Positions 4,848-16,858 of a stretch of 22,739 nt of DNA are shown here, in pieces; the stretch's first letter is position 1; the number at the start of each line of letters is the position of its first letter. The notes beneath the pieces were generated by a model. That model worked only from the letters and a program-made list of their open reading frames with translations. It did no database searches and had not been told where the DNA came from. Position numbers and translations under genes: made by a program. The stretch is taken from IMG/VR virus record IMGVR_UViG_3300006076_000030, positions 1 through 22,739 of that record. One strand, given 5' to 3'. The stretch comes from a virus.

Positions 4848-5615
4848 TTATACACCAGGTTTGTCGTTCCATGCTCTAATATGTAGCCTATCAGAATAAT
4901 TAAATCCTAATTCTACACATTTTTCCATAACAAATTGACAATTCTTGTCTACTTCTATTTTATTTTCTCCCATAGGCATTAGATATACATTAGCAAATAC
5001 TGGAATACCTCTTAAAATCTCTTTAATTTCATCCCAATCTGAATCCCATGTATCTTTAGATACTACGAACTTTAGATAACTTTCAGGACAGTGTTCAAGA
5101 ATATTAGTAATATTTTCTATATTTACTCTTTTATGTTCAGGTTCACCAGAGTTAGAAAGTTTTACAGACATAGAAAACATAATATCTTCTTGATATTTTC
5201 TAGTAAATTCAATATCTATAGACGAGTTAGTCTCAATAGTAACCTTATGTCCTCTAGATATATAGTGAGATAAAACTCTCTGAATTACGTCTTCCTTCCA
5301 ATGAATTAGAGGCTCCCCTCCAGTTAATACAATATCGGGTTTTAAGAGATTCTCTTTTGATAGAGTAGGCATAGTATTATCTATCCTATTAACTAAATCT
5401 AAATAATCTACATAATAATTCCATGAATCTTTAAACTTAGGTGATACAGCTCTAATACTATCACACCCCTTAATGATATTACCGTCCGGAGCTTCTAAAG
5501 AACACCCGAAACCCTCACATTTAAAATTACATAATCCTGTTCTTACAAATACAGAAGGTACTATTCTTTTACCCTCTCCTTGTATAGAATAGAATGTTTC
5601 TACAATTGGTACCAT
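4848..5615 (-). CDS. queE: 7-carboxy-7-deazaguanine synthase-like radical SAM enzyme (QueE)
   Basis: QueE converts 6-carboxytetrahydropterin to 7-carboxy-7-deazaguanine, the base precursor of queuosine and of deazaguanine-modified phage DNA. The 255-residue product opens with the family signature ETFYSIQGEG (6-15) and has GGEP at 99-102, expected for SAM binding. Its cluster cysteines are C29, C33 and C38 in CNFKCEGFGC, that is CX3CX4C rather than the usual CX3CX2C; a further Cys follows in GCDSIRAV (51). I recall similar GFGC and GCDSI strings in Campylobacter-type QueE, so the cluster is probably functional. An AGAGGA site precedes the ATG. The gene leads the queE-nrdA-kinase-nrdB group and has a ~150-base structured leader. 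No queC, queD or folE is in the window, so the end product is inference. Confidence 0.85.
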   Translation of the reverse strand: MVPIVETFYSIQGEGKRIVPSVFVRTGLCNFKCEGFGCSLEAPDGNIIKGCDSIRAVSPKFKDSWNYYVDYLDLVNRIDNTMPTLSKENLLKPDIVLTGGEPLIHWKEDVIQRVLSHYISRGHKVTIETNSSIDIEFTRKYQEDIMFSMSVKLSNSGEPEHKRVNIENITNILEHCPESYLKFVVSKDTWDSDWDEIKEILRGIPVFANVYLMPMGENKIEVDKNCQFVMEKCVELGFNYSDRLHIRAWNDKPGV

Positions 5616-11386: not shown

Positions 11387-12436
11387 ATGAAATTAATTCT
11401 GGAAGAAAGCTTAGATATCGAAGCTGTAGTAGAACTAAATGAAGCTACAGGAGAAAAAACATATGTTATTAAGGGTACTTTTAGTACACCTGAACTTAAA
11501 AACAGAAATGGTAGAATCTACCCGATGAAAATCTGGAAAGAGAATGTAGATAGATATCAAAGAGAAATCGAAAATAATACTCAAAATACTTTAATGGAAA
11601 AGGAACACCCTCCTAGAACTGAAGTAGACCCAACTAAAGCTGTTGCCAGAATTCGCAAACTAGAAATTCGCAACGGTGTAGTATATGGAGAATCTGTAAT
11701 TTTTAATAAACCTGAGACAGAAGATATAAGAGAAAGTATAGATAAAGGTCGAAAAGTAGGAGTATCTTCAAGAGGTGTAGGTAGACTTAATGGAGATATA
11801 GTAGAAGAATTTAATCTTATTACATATGATATAGTAGCTAATCCATCAGATTGGAATGCTAGTTTAGATGGATTTAATGAATCTTTAATCCTAGAAAGTG
11901 TAGAAATTGAAGCTGATGGGTATGGTGGGTGGATATGCACTCCCTCAGGATGTACCTTAGTAGAGTCGAAAGATATTACTAAAGAAGTTGAAAAAAGACT
12001 TAAAAATGAGCCTGTTATGATTACAGATGAGACTGGAAATGTTATTACTATTGAACATAAAGATGGTAAGTTTTTCTCAGGAGTAGATCAATATGGTAAT
12101 GGTATAGAGCTAAAAGGTCTTAAGGGATATATATTAGTAGAGTCTAAAAAAGAAACTCCTTGTACTAAGAAGGCTCTAGAACTAAAAGAAGCATTAGAAA
12201 AAATTGCTAGATCTAAAGAACTAGAGAAACAACTTAAAGAAGAGGAGGAGCTTAAAAAGAAATTTAAGAGCTTAATATCAGGATATAGTTTAGATGAATC
12301 TGACTATATATATGATGAAATCAAGACAGAATTAATATCACTAATAGAAGCAAATAAAATTAAAAATATTAAATTGAAAGATATTGGTGTAAAAATTTCA
12401 TTTGATGATAGAAATAAAACTATAAAGGTATTTTAA
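11387..12436 (+). CDS. 21: Prohead core protease, T4 gp21-like, with long C-terminal extension
   Basis: gp21 is the maturation protease that, inside the prohead, cuts scaffold, core and capsid proteins after (L/I)xE. The protease domain covers about residues 1-165: substrate-loop segment LKNRNGRIYP (37-46), catalytic His74 in MEKEHPP, nucleophile Ser127/128 in VGVSSRGVG, and the YDIVANPS segment (147-154). The whole product is 349 residues against 212 in T4. The extra ~180 residues hold a Cys-containing WICTPSGC loop, two LVESK stretches, a charged coiled coil (about 262-296) and a small final domain. The stop overlaps the next ATG (TAATG). The extension is not explained by T4 biology. Confidence 0.9.
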   Translation: MKLILEESLDIEAVVELNEATGEKTYVIKGTFSTPELKNRNGRIYPMKIWKENVDRYQREIENNTQNTLMEKEHPPRTEVDPTKAVARIRKLEIRNGVVYGESVIFNKPETEDIRESIDKGRKVGVSSRGVGRLNGDIVEEFNLITYDIVANPSDWNASLDGFNESLILESVEIEADGYGGWICTPSGCTLVESKDITKEVEKRLKNEPVMITDETGNVITIEHKDGKFFSGVDQYGNGIELKGLKGYILVESKKETPCTKKALELKEALEKIARSKELEKQLKEEEELKKKFKSLISGYSLDESDYIYDEIKTELISLIEANKIKNIKLKDIGVKISFDDRNKTIKVF

Positions 12437-12681
12437 TGTTTAATTTTAAAGAGATTTTTTCTGAAACATCTAAAACTAACGAATCGTATTTAGAGGATGA
12501 TATAGAAACTAAGAATATTTTAGATTCTTTAGAAGATACTCTTACAAGAGTTTTTAAGTTAAATAAAGGATATAAAGATCCTACTTCTAATAAACATCTT
12601 AAGAGAGCTATGAAAAATATAGCGGATGCTTCAGATAGTATAGAATCCTTTTATGAGTATGAATTTGGAAAGGAGTATTAA
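12436..12681 (+). CDS. Small head-module protein with capsid-targeting-like N-terminus
   Basis: The 81-residue product begins MFNFKEIFSET, sharing FNFxExFSE with the next gene. Such a short hydrophobic/acidic leader resembles gp21-processed capsid-targeting peptides. The rest is helical and charged (HLKRAMKNIADASDSIESF). It lies between the protease and scaffold genes, where T4 has no gene, with TAATG coupling on both sides. It may be a core or internal head protein; T4 gp68 is a possible functional counterpart although its usual position is between 67 and 21. No family is recognised. Confidence 0.65.
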   Translation: MFNFKEIFSETSKTNESYLEDDIETKNILDSLEDTLTRVFKLNKGYKDPTSNKHLKRAMKNIADASDSIESFYEYEFGKEY

Positions 12682-12941
12682 TGTCCTTATTTAATTTTGA
12701 GGAGGTTTTTTCTGAAGCAGTTAAAAATACTAAAGTATATGGATATAAAGAATTTTATAAAAGTCCACTTACCGAGGAGATAGTATGTTATGTAAACGAA
12801 AATAATGATATTTTCGATCTAGATAATAATATTATAGAGAATCAAAGTAGATATAGAGAGATGATAGAGTCATCTGCACTATTAAAGGTAAATAGATTAG
12901 AGGTTTCTAAACCTCTTCTATCAGAAATTGGATTTATATAA
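12681..12941 (+). CDS. Second small head-module protein with the same N-terminal leader
   Basis: The 86-residue product begins MSLFNFEEVFSEAVKNT, matching the leader of the gene just upstream (FNFKEIFSET). After the leader the two diverge: this one has a beta-rich segment (KVYGYKEFYKSPLTEEIVCYV) and ends SEIGFI. The ATG overlaps the upstream stop (TAATG), with a GGAAAGGAG ribosome site. Its last bases contain the late promoter of gp22. A head-internal or core protein role is inferred from context and leader. Confidence 0.65.
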   Translation: MSLFNFEEVFSEAVKNTKVYGYKEFYKSPLTEEIVCYVNENNDIFDLDNNIIENQSRYREMIESSALLKVNRLEVSKPLLSEIGFI

Positions 12942-12944
12942 ATA
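12937..12944 (+). promoter_or_regulatory. Late promoter for gp22
   Basis: An exact TATAAATA box lies at the 3' end of the preceding gene, overlapping its stop codon. It is followed 13 bases later by the structured leader of gp22. Confidence 0.75.
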
Positions 12945-12957
12945 AATATAATAATAA

Positions 12958-13011
12958 ATATTAAGATAGAGATGAAAAAGAGTGAAATCATCAATAGATG
13001 AGTCTTAATAT
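12958..13011 (+). promoter_or_regulatory. Structured leader element, copy 1 (gp22)
   Basis: ATATTAAGA (12958-12966) is exactly complementary to TCTTAATAT (13003-13011), forming a 9-bp helix around a 36-base interior. The interior has TAGAGATGAAAAAGAGTGAA followed by a perfect hairpin TCATC-AATA-GATGA (12988-13001). The same design, with other helix sequences, precedes gp23. The element ends 22 bases before the gp22 ATG and should lie close to the 5' end of the late transcript. Confidence 0.7.
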
Positions 13012-13033
13012 ATAAAAAGAAAGGAATTCACAG

Positions 13034-13762
13034 ATGAATGAATTATTTGAATCGTTAAGTATTGACGATAAAACAAAAGCTGAATTATCAGAAGCATTTG
13101 ATAAAGCCGTTATGGCTAAATCTGTTGAGCTAATGGAGTCTCATGTTCAAGAAAAAATTGAAGAGGCTAGAGTTGAGCTAGAAGAAGAATATAAAGAAAA
13201 GGTTGAGGATCTTGAGGAAACTCTAGACGGATATTTAACTTCTGTAGTTGAAGAATTTGTTGCAGAAAACGAAGTTAAGCATCAAAGAATTATTGAAGAG
13301 TCAAAAGTAGAAAAACTTTTAGAAACTTTTGATACAATGCTTAAAACTATGGGTATTGAAATGTTAGAAATTCAAGAAGCTAAGTCTGAAAAAGAAATTC
13401 TAGAAGATGAAAACTCATTAGAAAATAGACTTGATAGATTAGAAGATAAACTATCTGAAAAAGAGCATGAGCTTATTGAAGCTAGAAAAGAAGCTCAAGA
13501 ATATCTTAGAGCTGGAGTTATTGCAGAACTTTCAGAAGGACTTACTCTTACTGAAAAAGAAAAATTCGAAACTTTAGCTGATATGATTGAATTCTCTAAA
13601 GATGAGAAATATATAAGTGCTCTAGAGACTATTAAGGAAAACTTAATTGATAATAGAGGTGATAATATTCAAGAATCAGCAGTAGCATCTCTTCCTGCTA
13701 AAGCTTATAAAACTGAAGAAGTAGATGTAGCAGCTGCTACAGATTTTAGTAAATATATCTAA
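13034..13762 (+). CDS. 22: Prohead scaffolding core protein, T4 gp22-like
   Basis: gp22 is the main internal scaffold on which the gp23 shell assembles; it is later degraded by gp21. The 242-residue product (T4: 269) is acidic and almost wholly helical. It has long coiled coils (VQEKIEEARVELEEEYKEKV; LENRLDRLEDKLSEKEHELI) and the characteristic C-terminal segment AELSEGLTLTEKEKFETLAD. The tail DVAAATDFSKYI probably contacts the shell. Several LxE motifs could be cut by gp21. The ATG follows an AAAGGAATT site. It sits directly before gp23 as in T4. Confidence 0.9.
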   Translation: MNELFESLSIDDKTKAELSEAFDKAVMAKSVELMESHVQEKIEEARVELEEEYKEKVEDLEETLDGYLTSVVEEFVAENEVKHQRIIEESKVEKLLETFDTMLKTMGIEMLEIQEAKSEKEILEDENSLENRLDRLEDKLSEKEHELIEARKEAQEYLRAGVIAELSEGLTLTEKEKFETLADMIEFSKDEKYISALETIKENLIDNRGDNIQESAVASLPAKAYKTEEVDVAAATDFSKYI

Positions 13763-13764
13763 TA

Positions 13765-13772
13765 TATAAATA
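13765..13772 (+). promoter_or_regulatory. Late promoter for gp23
   Basis: An exact TATAAATA box starts 3 bases after the gp22 stop, 121 bases before the gp23 ATG. The long leader it produces contains two RNA structures. Confidence 0.75.
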
Positions 13773-13779
13773 CTAAAAA

Positions 13780-13833
13780 CTTGAAAAGTAGAAGTGAAAT
13801 AGAGCTGAAACAACAAGGGGTTGGCTTTTCAAG
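13780..13833 (+). promoter_or_regulatory. Structured leader element, copy 2 (gp23)
   Basis: CTTGAAAAG (13780-13788) pairs perfectly with CTTTTCAAG (13825-13833) around a 36-base interior that reads TAGAAGTGAAATAGAGCTGA, then a small hairpin CAAC-AAGGG-GTTG (13811-13823). Interior length, the TAGA..TGAAA.AGAG core and the second TGAAA are shared with the gp22 leader, while the paired arms differ but stay complementary. Confidence 0.7.
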
Positions 13834-13837
13834 GAAC

Positions 13838-13855
13838 TTCAATCTTTAGATTGAA
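13838..13855 (+). promoter_or_regulatory. Second hairpin in gp23 leader
   Basis: TTCAATC-TTTA-GATTGAA forms a perfect 7-bp stem with a four-base loop. It is followed by ~24 A-rich bases and the AAAGGAA ribosome site of gp23. The hairpin may shield the mRNA 5' end from decay or keep the ribosome site open. Confidence 0.65.
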
Positions 13856-13893
13856 AACAAAAAATAAAATAAAAATAAAAAAAGGAATTTAAA

Positions 13894-15270
13894 ATGGCTG
13901 ATTATAAAGCACTTTTAGAAAGCTCAAAATACGCTCCACTTGGAGAATTTGAAAAAGGCACACTTGCTGCTATTATGGAAAATACAGAAAAAGAAACTAA
14001 GCAAATGATTGCTGAAGGTACTATTTCTGCAGATATCGCTCAGTTTACACCATTCTTAATGCCAATGTTACGTAGAATTTATCCTACACTTATTGCTAAT
14101 GAATTACTTGGTGTTCAACCAATGTCAGGACCAACAGGTTTCATCTATAGTTTAACTAATCGTTTCGACGGTAATACTGCTAATGAAATTGACCCTAATA
14201 TTCAAGCTCAAGTTCTTGATTTAAGTGCTACTAAGGCTGTTGGTGATACACTTACAGGTGCTACTTCGGGAGCTACTGGTACTGTTGTTTATGTTGAGCC
14301 TGCTACACATGGTTTTGGACATGCTAATAAATTCGCTGGACGTGTTCTTGTTGAGTTAGATGCTGGTTCTGTTAAATTCATTGCTGGTGAGGATGTAGAT
14401 GGTGGTACTACAAGTACAACTGCTGTTTATTCTAATCAAGCTGCATGGCAAGCAATTCTTCCTAACTACTCTGGTACTTATACTACTGCTGAAGGTGAAG
14501 TAAGAGGTACTACTGGTAATGAAATGAATACAGTTGGTATTGCAGTTGAGAGAAAGCAAGTTGAAGCGCGTACTCGTAAACTTAGAGCTCAATATACTAT
14601 TGAGATGTATCAAGATCTTAAATCTATGCATGGTGTTCTTGCTGACCAAGAACTTATGAGTCTTATGAATTATGAAATCAAATCTGAAACTGACCGTGAA
14701 GTTGTTGATTTTGTTAATGCTAATGCAACTGCTCAATCTGATTTTGTTGTAGATGTAACAGGTGCTGGTCGTTCAAGATGGGAAATTGAAGATTATCGTC
14801 TTCTTGCTACTAAACTTTCTGATATGAGTCGTGAAATCGGTAGATTAAATAAACGTGGAGCTGCTAACAAGTTACTTGTTTCTCCAAAAGTTCTTACTAT
14901 GCTTGAGCAAATCGGTGGATACTATGCTTCTGATGTTGATTCGACTGTTAATCCACAAGCTGCTAACACAGCTGTAGCTGGTAGATTTGATAATAAATTC
15001 TCAGTTGTAGTTGATAACTATGCTAAATCTGATTATGCTACATTGATCTATAAAGGTTCTAATCAGGATGCACTTGGTGTTTGGGCTCCTTATACACCTG
15101 TTCAAATCCAAAAAGTAACTAATGTAGAAACTGGTCAACCAGCACTTATTGCTATGACACGTTATGGTCTTGCAACTAACCCTTGGGTAGATGATGCAGT
15201 CTCTATGGGTGAAGCTTCTCCATATGCTTCTACAATTGGTGTAGACTTCGCTAACTCAGTTCTTAAATAA
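13894..15270 (+). CDS. 23: Major capsid protein, T4 gp23-like
   Basis: This HK97-fold protein forms the hexons of the head. It has 458 residues against 521 in T4. Clear gp23 signatures are MLRRIYPTLIANELLGVQPM (58-77), PTGFIYSL, VERKQVEARTRKLRAQYTIE (218-237), MYQDLKSMHG and ETDREVVDFVN. The likely gp21 cut is after Glu41 in MIAE-GTISADI, giving a mature N-terminus. Residues ~107-182 are an insertion domain unlike that of T4, containing GDTLTGATSGATGTVVYV. Codon use differs from neighbours: CGT for Arg, CTT for Leu, GGT/GCT for Gly/Ala, as expected for the most abundant protein. It has its own late promoter, a structured leader and downstream hairpins. Confidence 0.96.
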   Translation: MADYKALLESSKYAPLGEFEKGTLAAIMENTEKETKQMIAEGTISADIAQFTPFLMPMLRRIYPTLIANELLGVQPMSGPTGFIYSLTNRFDGNTANEIDPNIQAQVLDLSATKAVGDTLTGATSGATGTVVYVEPATHGFGHANKFAGRVLVELDAGSVKFIAGEDVDGGTTSTTAVYSNQAAWQAILPNYSGTYTTAEGEVRGTTGNEMNTVGIAVERKQVEARTRKLRAQYTIEMYQDLKSMHGVLADQELMSLMNYEIKSETDREVVDFVNANATAQSDFVVDVTGAGRSRWEIEDYRLLATKLSDMSREIGRLNKRGAANKLLVSPKVLTMLEQIGGYYASDVDSTVNPQAANTAVAGRFDNKFSVVVDNYAKSDYATLIYKGSNQDALGVWAPYTPVQIQKVTNVETGQPALIAMTRYGLATNPWVDDAVSMGEASPYASTIGVDFANSVLK

Positions 15271-15387: not shown

Positions 15388-15403
15388 CATATAATATTAT
15401 ATG
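15388..15403. promoter_or_regulatory. Palindrome over the homing endonuclease start codon
   Basis: CATATAATATTATATG is a perfect 16-base palindrome whose last three bases are the ATG of the endonuclease gene. It contains TATAAT and resembles the AT promoter motif. No ribosome site precedes the ATG. It could be a promoter, or an RNA hairpin burying the start codon. Confidence 0.5.
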
Positions 15404-16858
15404 AAGAAAAATTCTATAAAATCACTAAATATAACTGAAGAATATTTTAAAGAGATATATTTTAATAAATCCTATAAAGAAATCTGTAATATACTCGATA
15501 TTACAGAGTATGGAATTACTACTATAGCTAAAGATTTAGGATTATCTAAAAAGAAAAAAATCACCTTAGAAACTCTAGATCTAACAGAAGAAAAATTTAA
15601 AGAGTTATTTTATAGATACTCATATTCTGAATTATCAAAAAAATTAAATGTAGGAGAACATATAATTCTCAAATTAGCTAGAGAATTATCACTTAAAAAA
15701 GATAAGAAAAATATAGTTGATAAGAGTAGGTTTATTGAGTTATTTAATTCTCATACATATAAAGAAATGACGGATATATTAGGTTTAAAAATAGGTACTA
15801 TTTATAGAATTAAAGATGAATTAGGAATATATAAAGTAAAGAAGATAGATATAGATAATATAGATTCAGAAAAATTAGCTAAGGATATGAAGAATAAAAC
15901 ATGGTGTGAAATTTCAGAAGAATATGAACTTTGTGGAACATCTCTTATAAAAATAGCAAAACATCTCAATCTTAAAAAACATATTAAGTACAGTATGGAA
16001 GAAAAAATTATAGAAGATCTAAATCTTCCAGAAAATATAAAATATGTTTTAAGAACAAAAAATATTATTTCTAAAGAACTCGATATTTATTTTCCTGACT
16101 ATAACTTTGCTATTGAATATAATGGGAGTTTATGGCATTCAAGAGGAACTACATTTCCCAATAATTTTGAAAAATTTGAAAACTATCATCTTTTAAAAAA
16201 AACAAAAGAATGTGAACAAAATAATATTCAATTATATCATATATTCGATTATGAGTATAACGATGAAATAAAAAGAGATATATGGATATCCATGATAAGA
16301 AGCAAATTAGGATTATCTGACAGGATATATGCTAGAAAATGTGTAATAAAAGAGATAGATACTAAAACATCTAAAGAATTTCTGAATGAAAATCATATGC
16401 AGGGTGGAGATGTTCCTAATAATTTAGCTTTTGGACTATACTATAGTAACGAGTTAGTATCCTTAATGACTTTTGGAAAATCTAGGTTTAATAAAAAATA
16501 TGGCTATGAATTATTAAGATTCTGTAATAAGAAAAATTTTACAGTTATCGGTGGAGCATCAAGATTATTAAAGTACTTCACTAAAAATTATTCAGGTTCA
16601 ATAATATCTTATGCTAATCGTAGATGGTCTAACGGAAACCTATATGAAAAAATTGGATTTAGGAAAATAAACGAATCTAACCCCAATTATTTCTATATTA
16701 AGGATGGAAAAATATTTTCTAGAAATAGTTTTCAGAAACATAAACTAAAGAATAAATTAGAAAATTTTAACGAAGATCTATCTGAAGTACAGAATATGAT
16801 GAATAATGAATATAGGCAATTATTTGATTGTGGAAATATAGTATATGGATTAATATAA
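15401..16858 (+). CDS. Homing endonuclease, Hef/Vsr-like, with four N-terminal HTH repeats
   Basis: This free-standing homing endonuclease gene lies between gp23 and the next structural gene. The 485-residue product has four tandem ~45-residue helix-turn-helix repeats (about 10-53, 59-103, 106-148, 154-196), each ending in a Lys-rich linker (LGLSKKKK, LSLKKDKK, LGIYKVKK, LNLKKHIK). A Vsr/PD-(D/E)XK-like nuclease follows at about 215-295, with ELDIYFPDYNFAIEYNGSLW (226-245), H246 and the KKTKECEQNNIQLYHIF stretch. A C-terminal domain (~305-430) with GGASRLLKYF and SYANRRWSNGNLYEKIGF resembles a domain often fused to Hef-type phage endonucleases and recalls an acyltransferase fold. No ribosome site is visible before the ATG, so expression is probably low. 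The gene is complete. Confidence 0.85.
   Translation: MKKNSIKSLNITEEYFKEIYFNKSYKEICNILDITEYGITTIAKDLGLSKKKKITLETLDLTEEKFKELFYRYSYSELSKKLNVGEHIILKLARELSLKKDKKNIVDKSRFIELFNSHTYKEMTDILGLKIGTIYRIKDELGIYKVKKIDIDNIDSEKLAKDMKNKTWCEISEEYELCGTSLIKIAKHLNLKKHIKYSMEEKIIEDLNLPENIKYVLRTKNIISKELDIYFPDYNFAIEYNGSLWHSRGTTFPNNFEKFENYHLLKKTKECEQNNIQLYHIFDYEYNDEIKRDIWISMIRSKLGLSDRIYARKCVIKEIDTKTSKEFLNENHMQGGDVPNNLAFGLYYSNELVSLMTFGKSRFNKKYGYELLRFCNKKNFTVIGGASRLLKYFTKNYSGSIISYANRRWSNGNLYEKIGFRKINESNPNYFYIKDGKIFSRNSFQKHKLKNKLENFNEDLSEVQNMMNNEYRQLFDCGNIVYGLI

Follow-up and report, generated by a model that had tools for sequence, protein, structure and literature searches.

A covarying structured RNA in the scaffold and capsid gene leaders of a little-studied branch of T4-like phages

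Why should the leaders of two neighboring phage head genes carry the same arrangement of paired and unpaired bases, when the paired sequences themselves differ completely? This question is raised by a 22,739-nucleotide stretch of viral DNA (IMG/VR record IMGVR_UViG_3300006076_000030), the whole of which we refer to as the window. PHROG profile matches identify it as part of a T4-like myovirus, with genes for the portal, head maturation protease, gp22, and gp23 in that order. The nearest annotated capsids, at about 45–48% identity, belong to Vibrio phages (e.g., Va1) and Campylobacter phages (e.g., CP21), and the 1-kb region containing the element has no DNA-level match among 50,697 annotated phages. 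The phages that bear the element are a little-studied T4-like branch, distinct from the laboratory models. The relevant features are as follows:

Within the window: portal, phrog_213 match
Within the window: head maturation protease, phrog_207 match
12937..12944, + strand: T4-type late promoter box TATAAATA of gp22, exact consensus
12958..12967, + strand: P1 5' arm of copy 1, nine Watson-Crick pairs plus the U of a U·G pair; complements 13002-13011; covariation
12968..12987, + strand: unpaired conserved core of copy 1, AGAGATGAAAAAGAGTGAAA, with TGAAA..AG..TGAAA; kept in 20 copies
12988..13001, + strand: P2 hairpin of copy 1, TCATC-AATA-GATGA; sequence changed yet paired in all relatives
13002..13011, + strand: P1 3' arm of copy 1, adjoining P2 (sequence, RNAfold)
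13034..13762, + strand: gp22 head scaffolding protein, phrog_237, E 8e-27
13765..13772, + strand: T4-type late promoter box TATAAATA of gp23, exact consensus
13780..13789, + strand: P1 5' arm of copy 2, nine pairs plus the U of a U·G pair; complements 13824-13833
13790..13810, + strand: unpaired conserved core of copy 2, AGAAGTGAAATAGAGCTGAAA (conservation among copies)
13811..13823, + strand: P2 hairpin of copy 2, CAAC-AAGGG-GTTG (alignment, RNAfold)
13824..13833, + strand: P1 3' arm of copy 2, adjoining P2 (sequence, RNAfold)
13838..13855, + strand: second, simple hairpin in the gp23 leader, TTCAATC-TTTA-GATTGAA; accessory, outside the core element
13894..15270, + strand: gp23 major head protein, phrog_138, E 5e-87

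A preliminary description of this DNA had proposed two copies of one structured RNA, and its account of their architecture holds in every part. The outer helices, ATATTAAGA (12958-12966) with TCTTAATAT (13003-13011) in copy 1 and CTTGAAAAG (13780-13788) with CTTTTCAAG (13825-13833) in copy 2, are perfect complements, each enclosing 36 nt. The small inner hairpins are TCATC/GATGA (12988-12992/12997-13001) and CAAC/GTTG (13811-13814/13820-13823). Both interiors share TAGAnnTGAAAnAGAG(n)TGAAA, a pattern that matches exactly two places in the window and none when reversed as a control. In the RNAfold minimum free energy structures, each copy gains a tenth outer pair, U·G (T12967·G13002 and T13789·G13824). 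Because this pair closes the outer helix, P2 and the 3' arm of P1 abut without a linker, and the whole can therefore be read as one helix whose 5' strand is interrupted by a bulge. The fold is thus a continuous helix (P1 plus P2) with a 20–21-nt purine-rich bulge, AGAnnUGAAAnAGAnnUGAAA, in an element of roughly 54 bases. Folding energy alone is only moderately unusual (z -1.8 for copy 1 and -2.4 for copy 2); it is comparison among relatives that makes the case for a structure.

Relatives were collected by capsid protein similarity. The same arrangement, with different arms, is found in the gp23 leaders of contigs whose capsids are 57–99% identical, and in the gp22 leaders of contigs at 68% capsid identity or more. 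Two examples are GATTTATAAGT-AGAGTTGAAACAGATATTGAAA-TGCATAGCA-GCTTATAAATC (L143) and AGTATTACGCTGAT-AGAGCCTGAAATAGAAACTGAAA-CTCTCGGTGGAGAG-GTCAGCGTGATGTT (L145). A descriptor requiring the core, an adjacent arm of at least 6 bp, and a hairpin of at least 3 bp was scanned over 668 kb, where it returned 20 distinct leader matches and three others (L026, L145:498, and L207), with no match at all in the reversed or complemented sequence. In the 81-, 183-, and 235-kb contigs, convincing matches occur only at the gp22 and gp23 leaders; the gp23 copy of the 235-kb contig scores weakly (16.6 bits), yet the full arrangement is present. Of the remaining weak or core-only matches, the six that were inspected all lie within or overlap open frames.

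To what extent is the pairing itself conserved? The preliminary description had suggested a covariance-model search of related phages, and such a search did find copies in which pairing is kept. The model was built from six copies and used to align 20 copies drawn from 12 contigs, counting the window; it replaced MAFFT, which alone misaligned the variable hairpins. An alignment of this kind leans towards the structure of its model, here derived from six sequences, and slid and shuffled controls were applied. All 220 of 220 cells hold standard pairs (100%), and changes on both sides are seen in each of the 12 pairs. The covariation score is 1.057, compared with 0.266±0.034 for shuffled alignments and 0.10–0.15 (maximum 0.145) when the partners are slid, and RNAalifold recovers the same structure from the 20-copy alignment. 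The P1 pair beside the core is U·G in eight of the 19 distinct copies, U-A in seven, C-G in three, and G-C in one. Since a U·G pair would be A·C on the opposite strand, selection acts on the sense-strand (coding-strand) RNA.

The constant part of the family is the unpaired core, AGA, UGAAA, AG, and UGAAA, with the two UGAAA starts 9–13 nt apart. Its overall shape is a P1 of 8 bp or more, a 19–23-nt purine-rich unpaired core, and a P2 that directly adjoins P1. Covariation in relatives therefore strongly supports the proposal that the gp22 and gp23 leaders hold two copies of a selected RNA structure. Judged from these alignments, the two-copy observation is genuine and beyond chance, the helix sequences having changed repeatedly with pairing kept. 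Covarying sense-strand helices in the leaders of orthologous genes are what is generally expected of a structured cis-regulatory leader RNA, and they are what was found here.

This bears directly on the most skeptical reading, namely that the copies arise by chance or reflect a DNA-level feature such as a late-promoter or replication-related palindrome. An AT-rich genome does yield long helices readily (with free placement, shuffled sequence gives 7 bp on average), but covariation, the sense-strand U·G pairs, the absence of control matches, and the consistent orientation and position of all copies speak against it. For the main clade we regard this reading as effectively refuted, its probability being close to negligible.

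Outside that clade, the picture is mixed. Homologous phages lacking the pairing or the core had been named in advance as evidence against the element; none occurs within the clade, whereas further out they do occur (CP21, phiKT1024, and T4). The element is absent from the leaders of Campylobacter phages CP21 and NCTC12673 and of Vibrio phages phiKT1024/SRILMA. The phiKT1024 capsid is ~70% identical to that of L198, and since phiKT1024 lacks the element though related to L198 phages, the element is dispensable in some lineages. It is also absent from T4, where the gaps, of 30 nt and 18 nt, leave no room for it; the earlier remark that T4 has no such element agrees with this.

A minimal core, defined as UGAAA-N-AG-N1-4-UGAAA, reaches further. 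It occurs in 22 of 61 gp22 leaders and in 9 of 65 gp23 leaders, against 0.045 and 0.030 expected, respectively, from dinucleotide shuffles. In the clade at 57–59% capsid identity, the gp22 leaders (L149, L151, L152, and L153) have an extra hairpin between AGA and the core, its loop being UGAAAU in three cases; the L150 gp22 leader resembles this variant, with a less regular P1. Among phages farther away (capsids mostly 42–50% identical), 13 of the 53 distinct loci examined have the core ahead of gp22, usually in the form UGAAAUAGUUUGAAA. Its presence in distant gp22 leaders is established. The surroundings vary: five phages (L171, L174, L181, L187, and L198) have a hairpin ahead of the core and a P1 3' arm behind it, and in five others (L154, L155, L177, L179, and L190) the core occupies the loop of a single stem. 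With freely placed arms, the enclosing helices in distant phages average 9.6 bp, compared with 7.3 bp in shuffled sequence. These contexts are provisional because AT-rich sequence yields long arms by chance; alternative helical contexts for the core are nevertheless likely, each being a single-sequence prediction that is individually weak.

Please note that IMG/VR matches to the short core TGAAAWAGTTTGAAA enter no count. Searching IMG/VR and the bacterial and archaeal genomes with the exact long pattern gave no P1/P2 arrangement outside the clade among the matches listed. A different common motif, TGACCG(G)AAAT-GTC-AAACTA followed by TAATTTTTATCGATAAAAATT, was seen upstream of gp22 in L215, L218, and L219; its sequence suggests a further structured element of gp22 leaders, this one in a distinct group of phages.

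Where does the element sit in the message? As the preliminary description had it, the spacing from the end of the exact late box TATAAATA to the element is 13 nt for copy 1 and 7 nt for copy 2. An exact box also lies 6–16 nt ahead of P1 in 14 of the 20 copies, and none is found within 70 nt upstream of the gp23 copies of L004 and L005. The proposal that the element lies near the mRNA 5' end thus stands for most copies but does not extend to those two. In some distant phages (e.g., L171, L181, L196, L198, and L199) the core even precedes the best gp22 late box and may form part of the gp21 message upstream, so a role confined to the mRNA 5' end would not account for these cases.

At the other end, the start of P1 is 72–128 nt from the ATG, and both the Shine-Dalgarno (SD) sequence and the start codon lie outside P1 and P2. 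In the window, the SD sequences AAAGGA (13020-13025) and AAAAGGA (13880-13886) are both downstream of P1; the ribosome-binding sites are 3' of the fold, beyond an A-rich stretch. The accessory hairpin listed above has counterparts of differing sequence 3' of the element in several other gp23 leaders.

A comparison with characterized phage RNAs is useful at this point. The T4 gene e and I-TevI leader hairpins adjoin late promoters and sequester the ribosome-binding site in early transcripts (PMC3014915). They share with our element an RNA structure beside a late promoter in T4-like phages. The element, in contrast, is transcribed from the late promoter and lies upstream of an open SD; no ribosome-binding site was found inside a stem, as sequestration of that type would require. 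The gene 32 leader pseudoknot of T4 and RB69 is an autogenous operator through which a phage protein controls translation (PMC3014915), and it too is a structured RNA in the leader of a T4-type phage message. It belongs to another gene class and has a pseudoknot fold, whereas the element has a nested helix with a purine bulge, is found at two late head genes, and leaves the SD outside the fold. The manA and wcaG motifs are covarying cis-regulatory RNA candidates in the 5' UTRs of T4-like cyanophages (PMC2864571); these are different families, attached to metabolic and light-response genes, and the element has no Rfam match. Indeed, no Rfam 15 family scores above its gathering threshold in the window, and in the element region matches at E up to 10 are at chance level only. 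In searches of the open-access literature, including a T4 review (PMC3014915), no account of such an element shared by gp22 and gp23 was found, the subscription literature being incompletely covered. The family, its core, and its placement on two head genes therefore appear new; structured leader RNA as a kind is known.

What, then, might it do? A conserved, single-stranded, purine-rich core whose supporting helices vary usually marks a recognized site, and we infer one here. Our preferred reading, held tentatively and at somewhat less than an even chance, is a cis-acting leader module that would co-control the scaffold and capsid mRNAs, a trans-acting protein reading the core so that the message is stabilized or boosted. 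P1 and P2 would stack as a rod, holding the ends of the core together and displaying it to a factor acting in trans, for which an RNA-binding protein of the phage or host is the likeliest candidate. With the site on both messages, the stability and/or translation of the two, and hence the scaffold:capsid ratio late in infection, would be adjusted together; T4-like phages must make capsid and scaffold proteins in quantity and in the correct ratio. The net effect would probably be positive, with the 5' region shielded from decay or translation enhanced. We judge this likelier than repression because the fold leaves out the ribosome-binding site, the leader beyond it is open and A-rich, and the phage requires both proteins in abundance. 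RegA was considered as the partner and rejected: no PF01818 homologue was found in five element-bearing contigs, some of them fragments (PF01818 was found in T4), and a translational operator read by a phage-encoded RegA is accordingly not indicated in those five. In a broader version, which we think rather unlikely, the core would function in a bulge, three-way junction, or hairpin loop alike across T4-like phages; it would capture a conserved part of the gene-expression machinery, whether the late RNA polymerase, the ribosome, or one of its proteins, in favor of the capsid genes.

Could the fold act without any partner? As a passive 5'-end stabilizer, the rod would block 5'-end-dependent decay by RppH/RNase E or RNase J, and the core would be kept constant solely by its packing into a compact tertiary fold. 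P1 does begin a few nucleotides from the predicted +1 in most copies (positions that follow known T4 late-promoter geometry), the genes are highly expressed, and the SD is free. However, a plain hairpin would suffice for this purpose, and a near-invariant core amid changing helices and contexts argues for recognition or catalysis; the L004 and L005 gp23 copies, lacking an exact late box within 70 nt, also fit poorly. We consider this explanation unlikely, though less so than the other rivals. Catalysis in the form of a new self-cleaving or processing RNA (a ribozyme or endonuclease site generating the 5' ends of the gp22 and gp23 messages) seems highly improbable. The compact fold at a helix junction and the strong conservation of the purine core would suit it, and topology tolerance is possible, as for hammerhead ribozymes, which tolerate different topologies (PMC10085705). 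Against this, no Rfam ribozyme family matches, and cleavage of an element often only a few nucleotides after the promoter would achieve little.

Two further explanations take other RNAs as their model. The put RNA of phage HK022 occurs in two copies and has conserved unpaired bases. It is a structured RNA just downstream of phage promoters that acts on transcription by itself (PMC9378689). By analogy, nascent leader RNA might bind the late RNA polymerase so that it resists pausing or termination along the head-gene operon. The element is mostly promoter-proximal and structured, has conserved unpaired bases, and stands in two copies at the starts of transcription units; but distant members precede another late box, and no terminator was identified between gp22 and gp23 that would have to be suppressed. 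The put RNA, likened here by description only, differs in acting on early lambdoid transcripts and host RNA polymerase. We find such a role improbable. Still more doubtful is rRNA mimicry, in which the core would imitate a conserved strand at a junction in domain I of 23S rRNA and recruit a ribosomal protein, a ribosome-assembly factor, or the ribosome. E. coli 23S nt 499-515 (L220), UGAAAAAGAACCUGAAA, fits the core pattern, which one of 200 shuffled versions of the first 982 nt of that rRNA also matched. The RF02541 consensus there, AGUGAAAuAGaaCcUGAAA, lies between the 3' strand of a hairpin and the strand of the next helix, so that UGAAA-N-AG-Nn-UGAAA stands between two helix strands in both RNAs. 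This likeness is, however, post hoc, the core is short and A-rich, and we claim no homology. The rRNA strand sits within a large fold, its helical context differs, and no rRNA match came from a cmscan of the region that included RF02541 among its models. The resemblance is only a lead.

Returning to the preferred reading of a leader module recognized in trans, its value is easily stated. The element combines strong covariation with a compact fold in phages unlike the laboratory models. Should the core be a site for protein binding, a late-gene regulon has been identified; should the element work on its own, it is a new functional RNA of compact size.

Some neighboring genes also deserve mention. 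Two small ORFs (12436-12681 and 12681-12941) adjoin directly before gp22 and begin similarly (FNFKEIFSE and FNFEEVFSE); neither has a PHROG match, and they are possibly paralogous prohead core proteins. Immediately 3' of gp23 is an HNH homing-endonuclease-like gene (15401-16858, phrog_3339). Finally, a QueE-like radical SAM gene (window 4848-5615, phrog_2076) suggests 7-deazaguanine chemistry in the phage from which the window derives.
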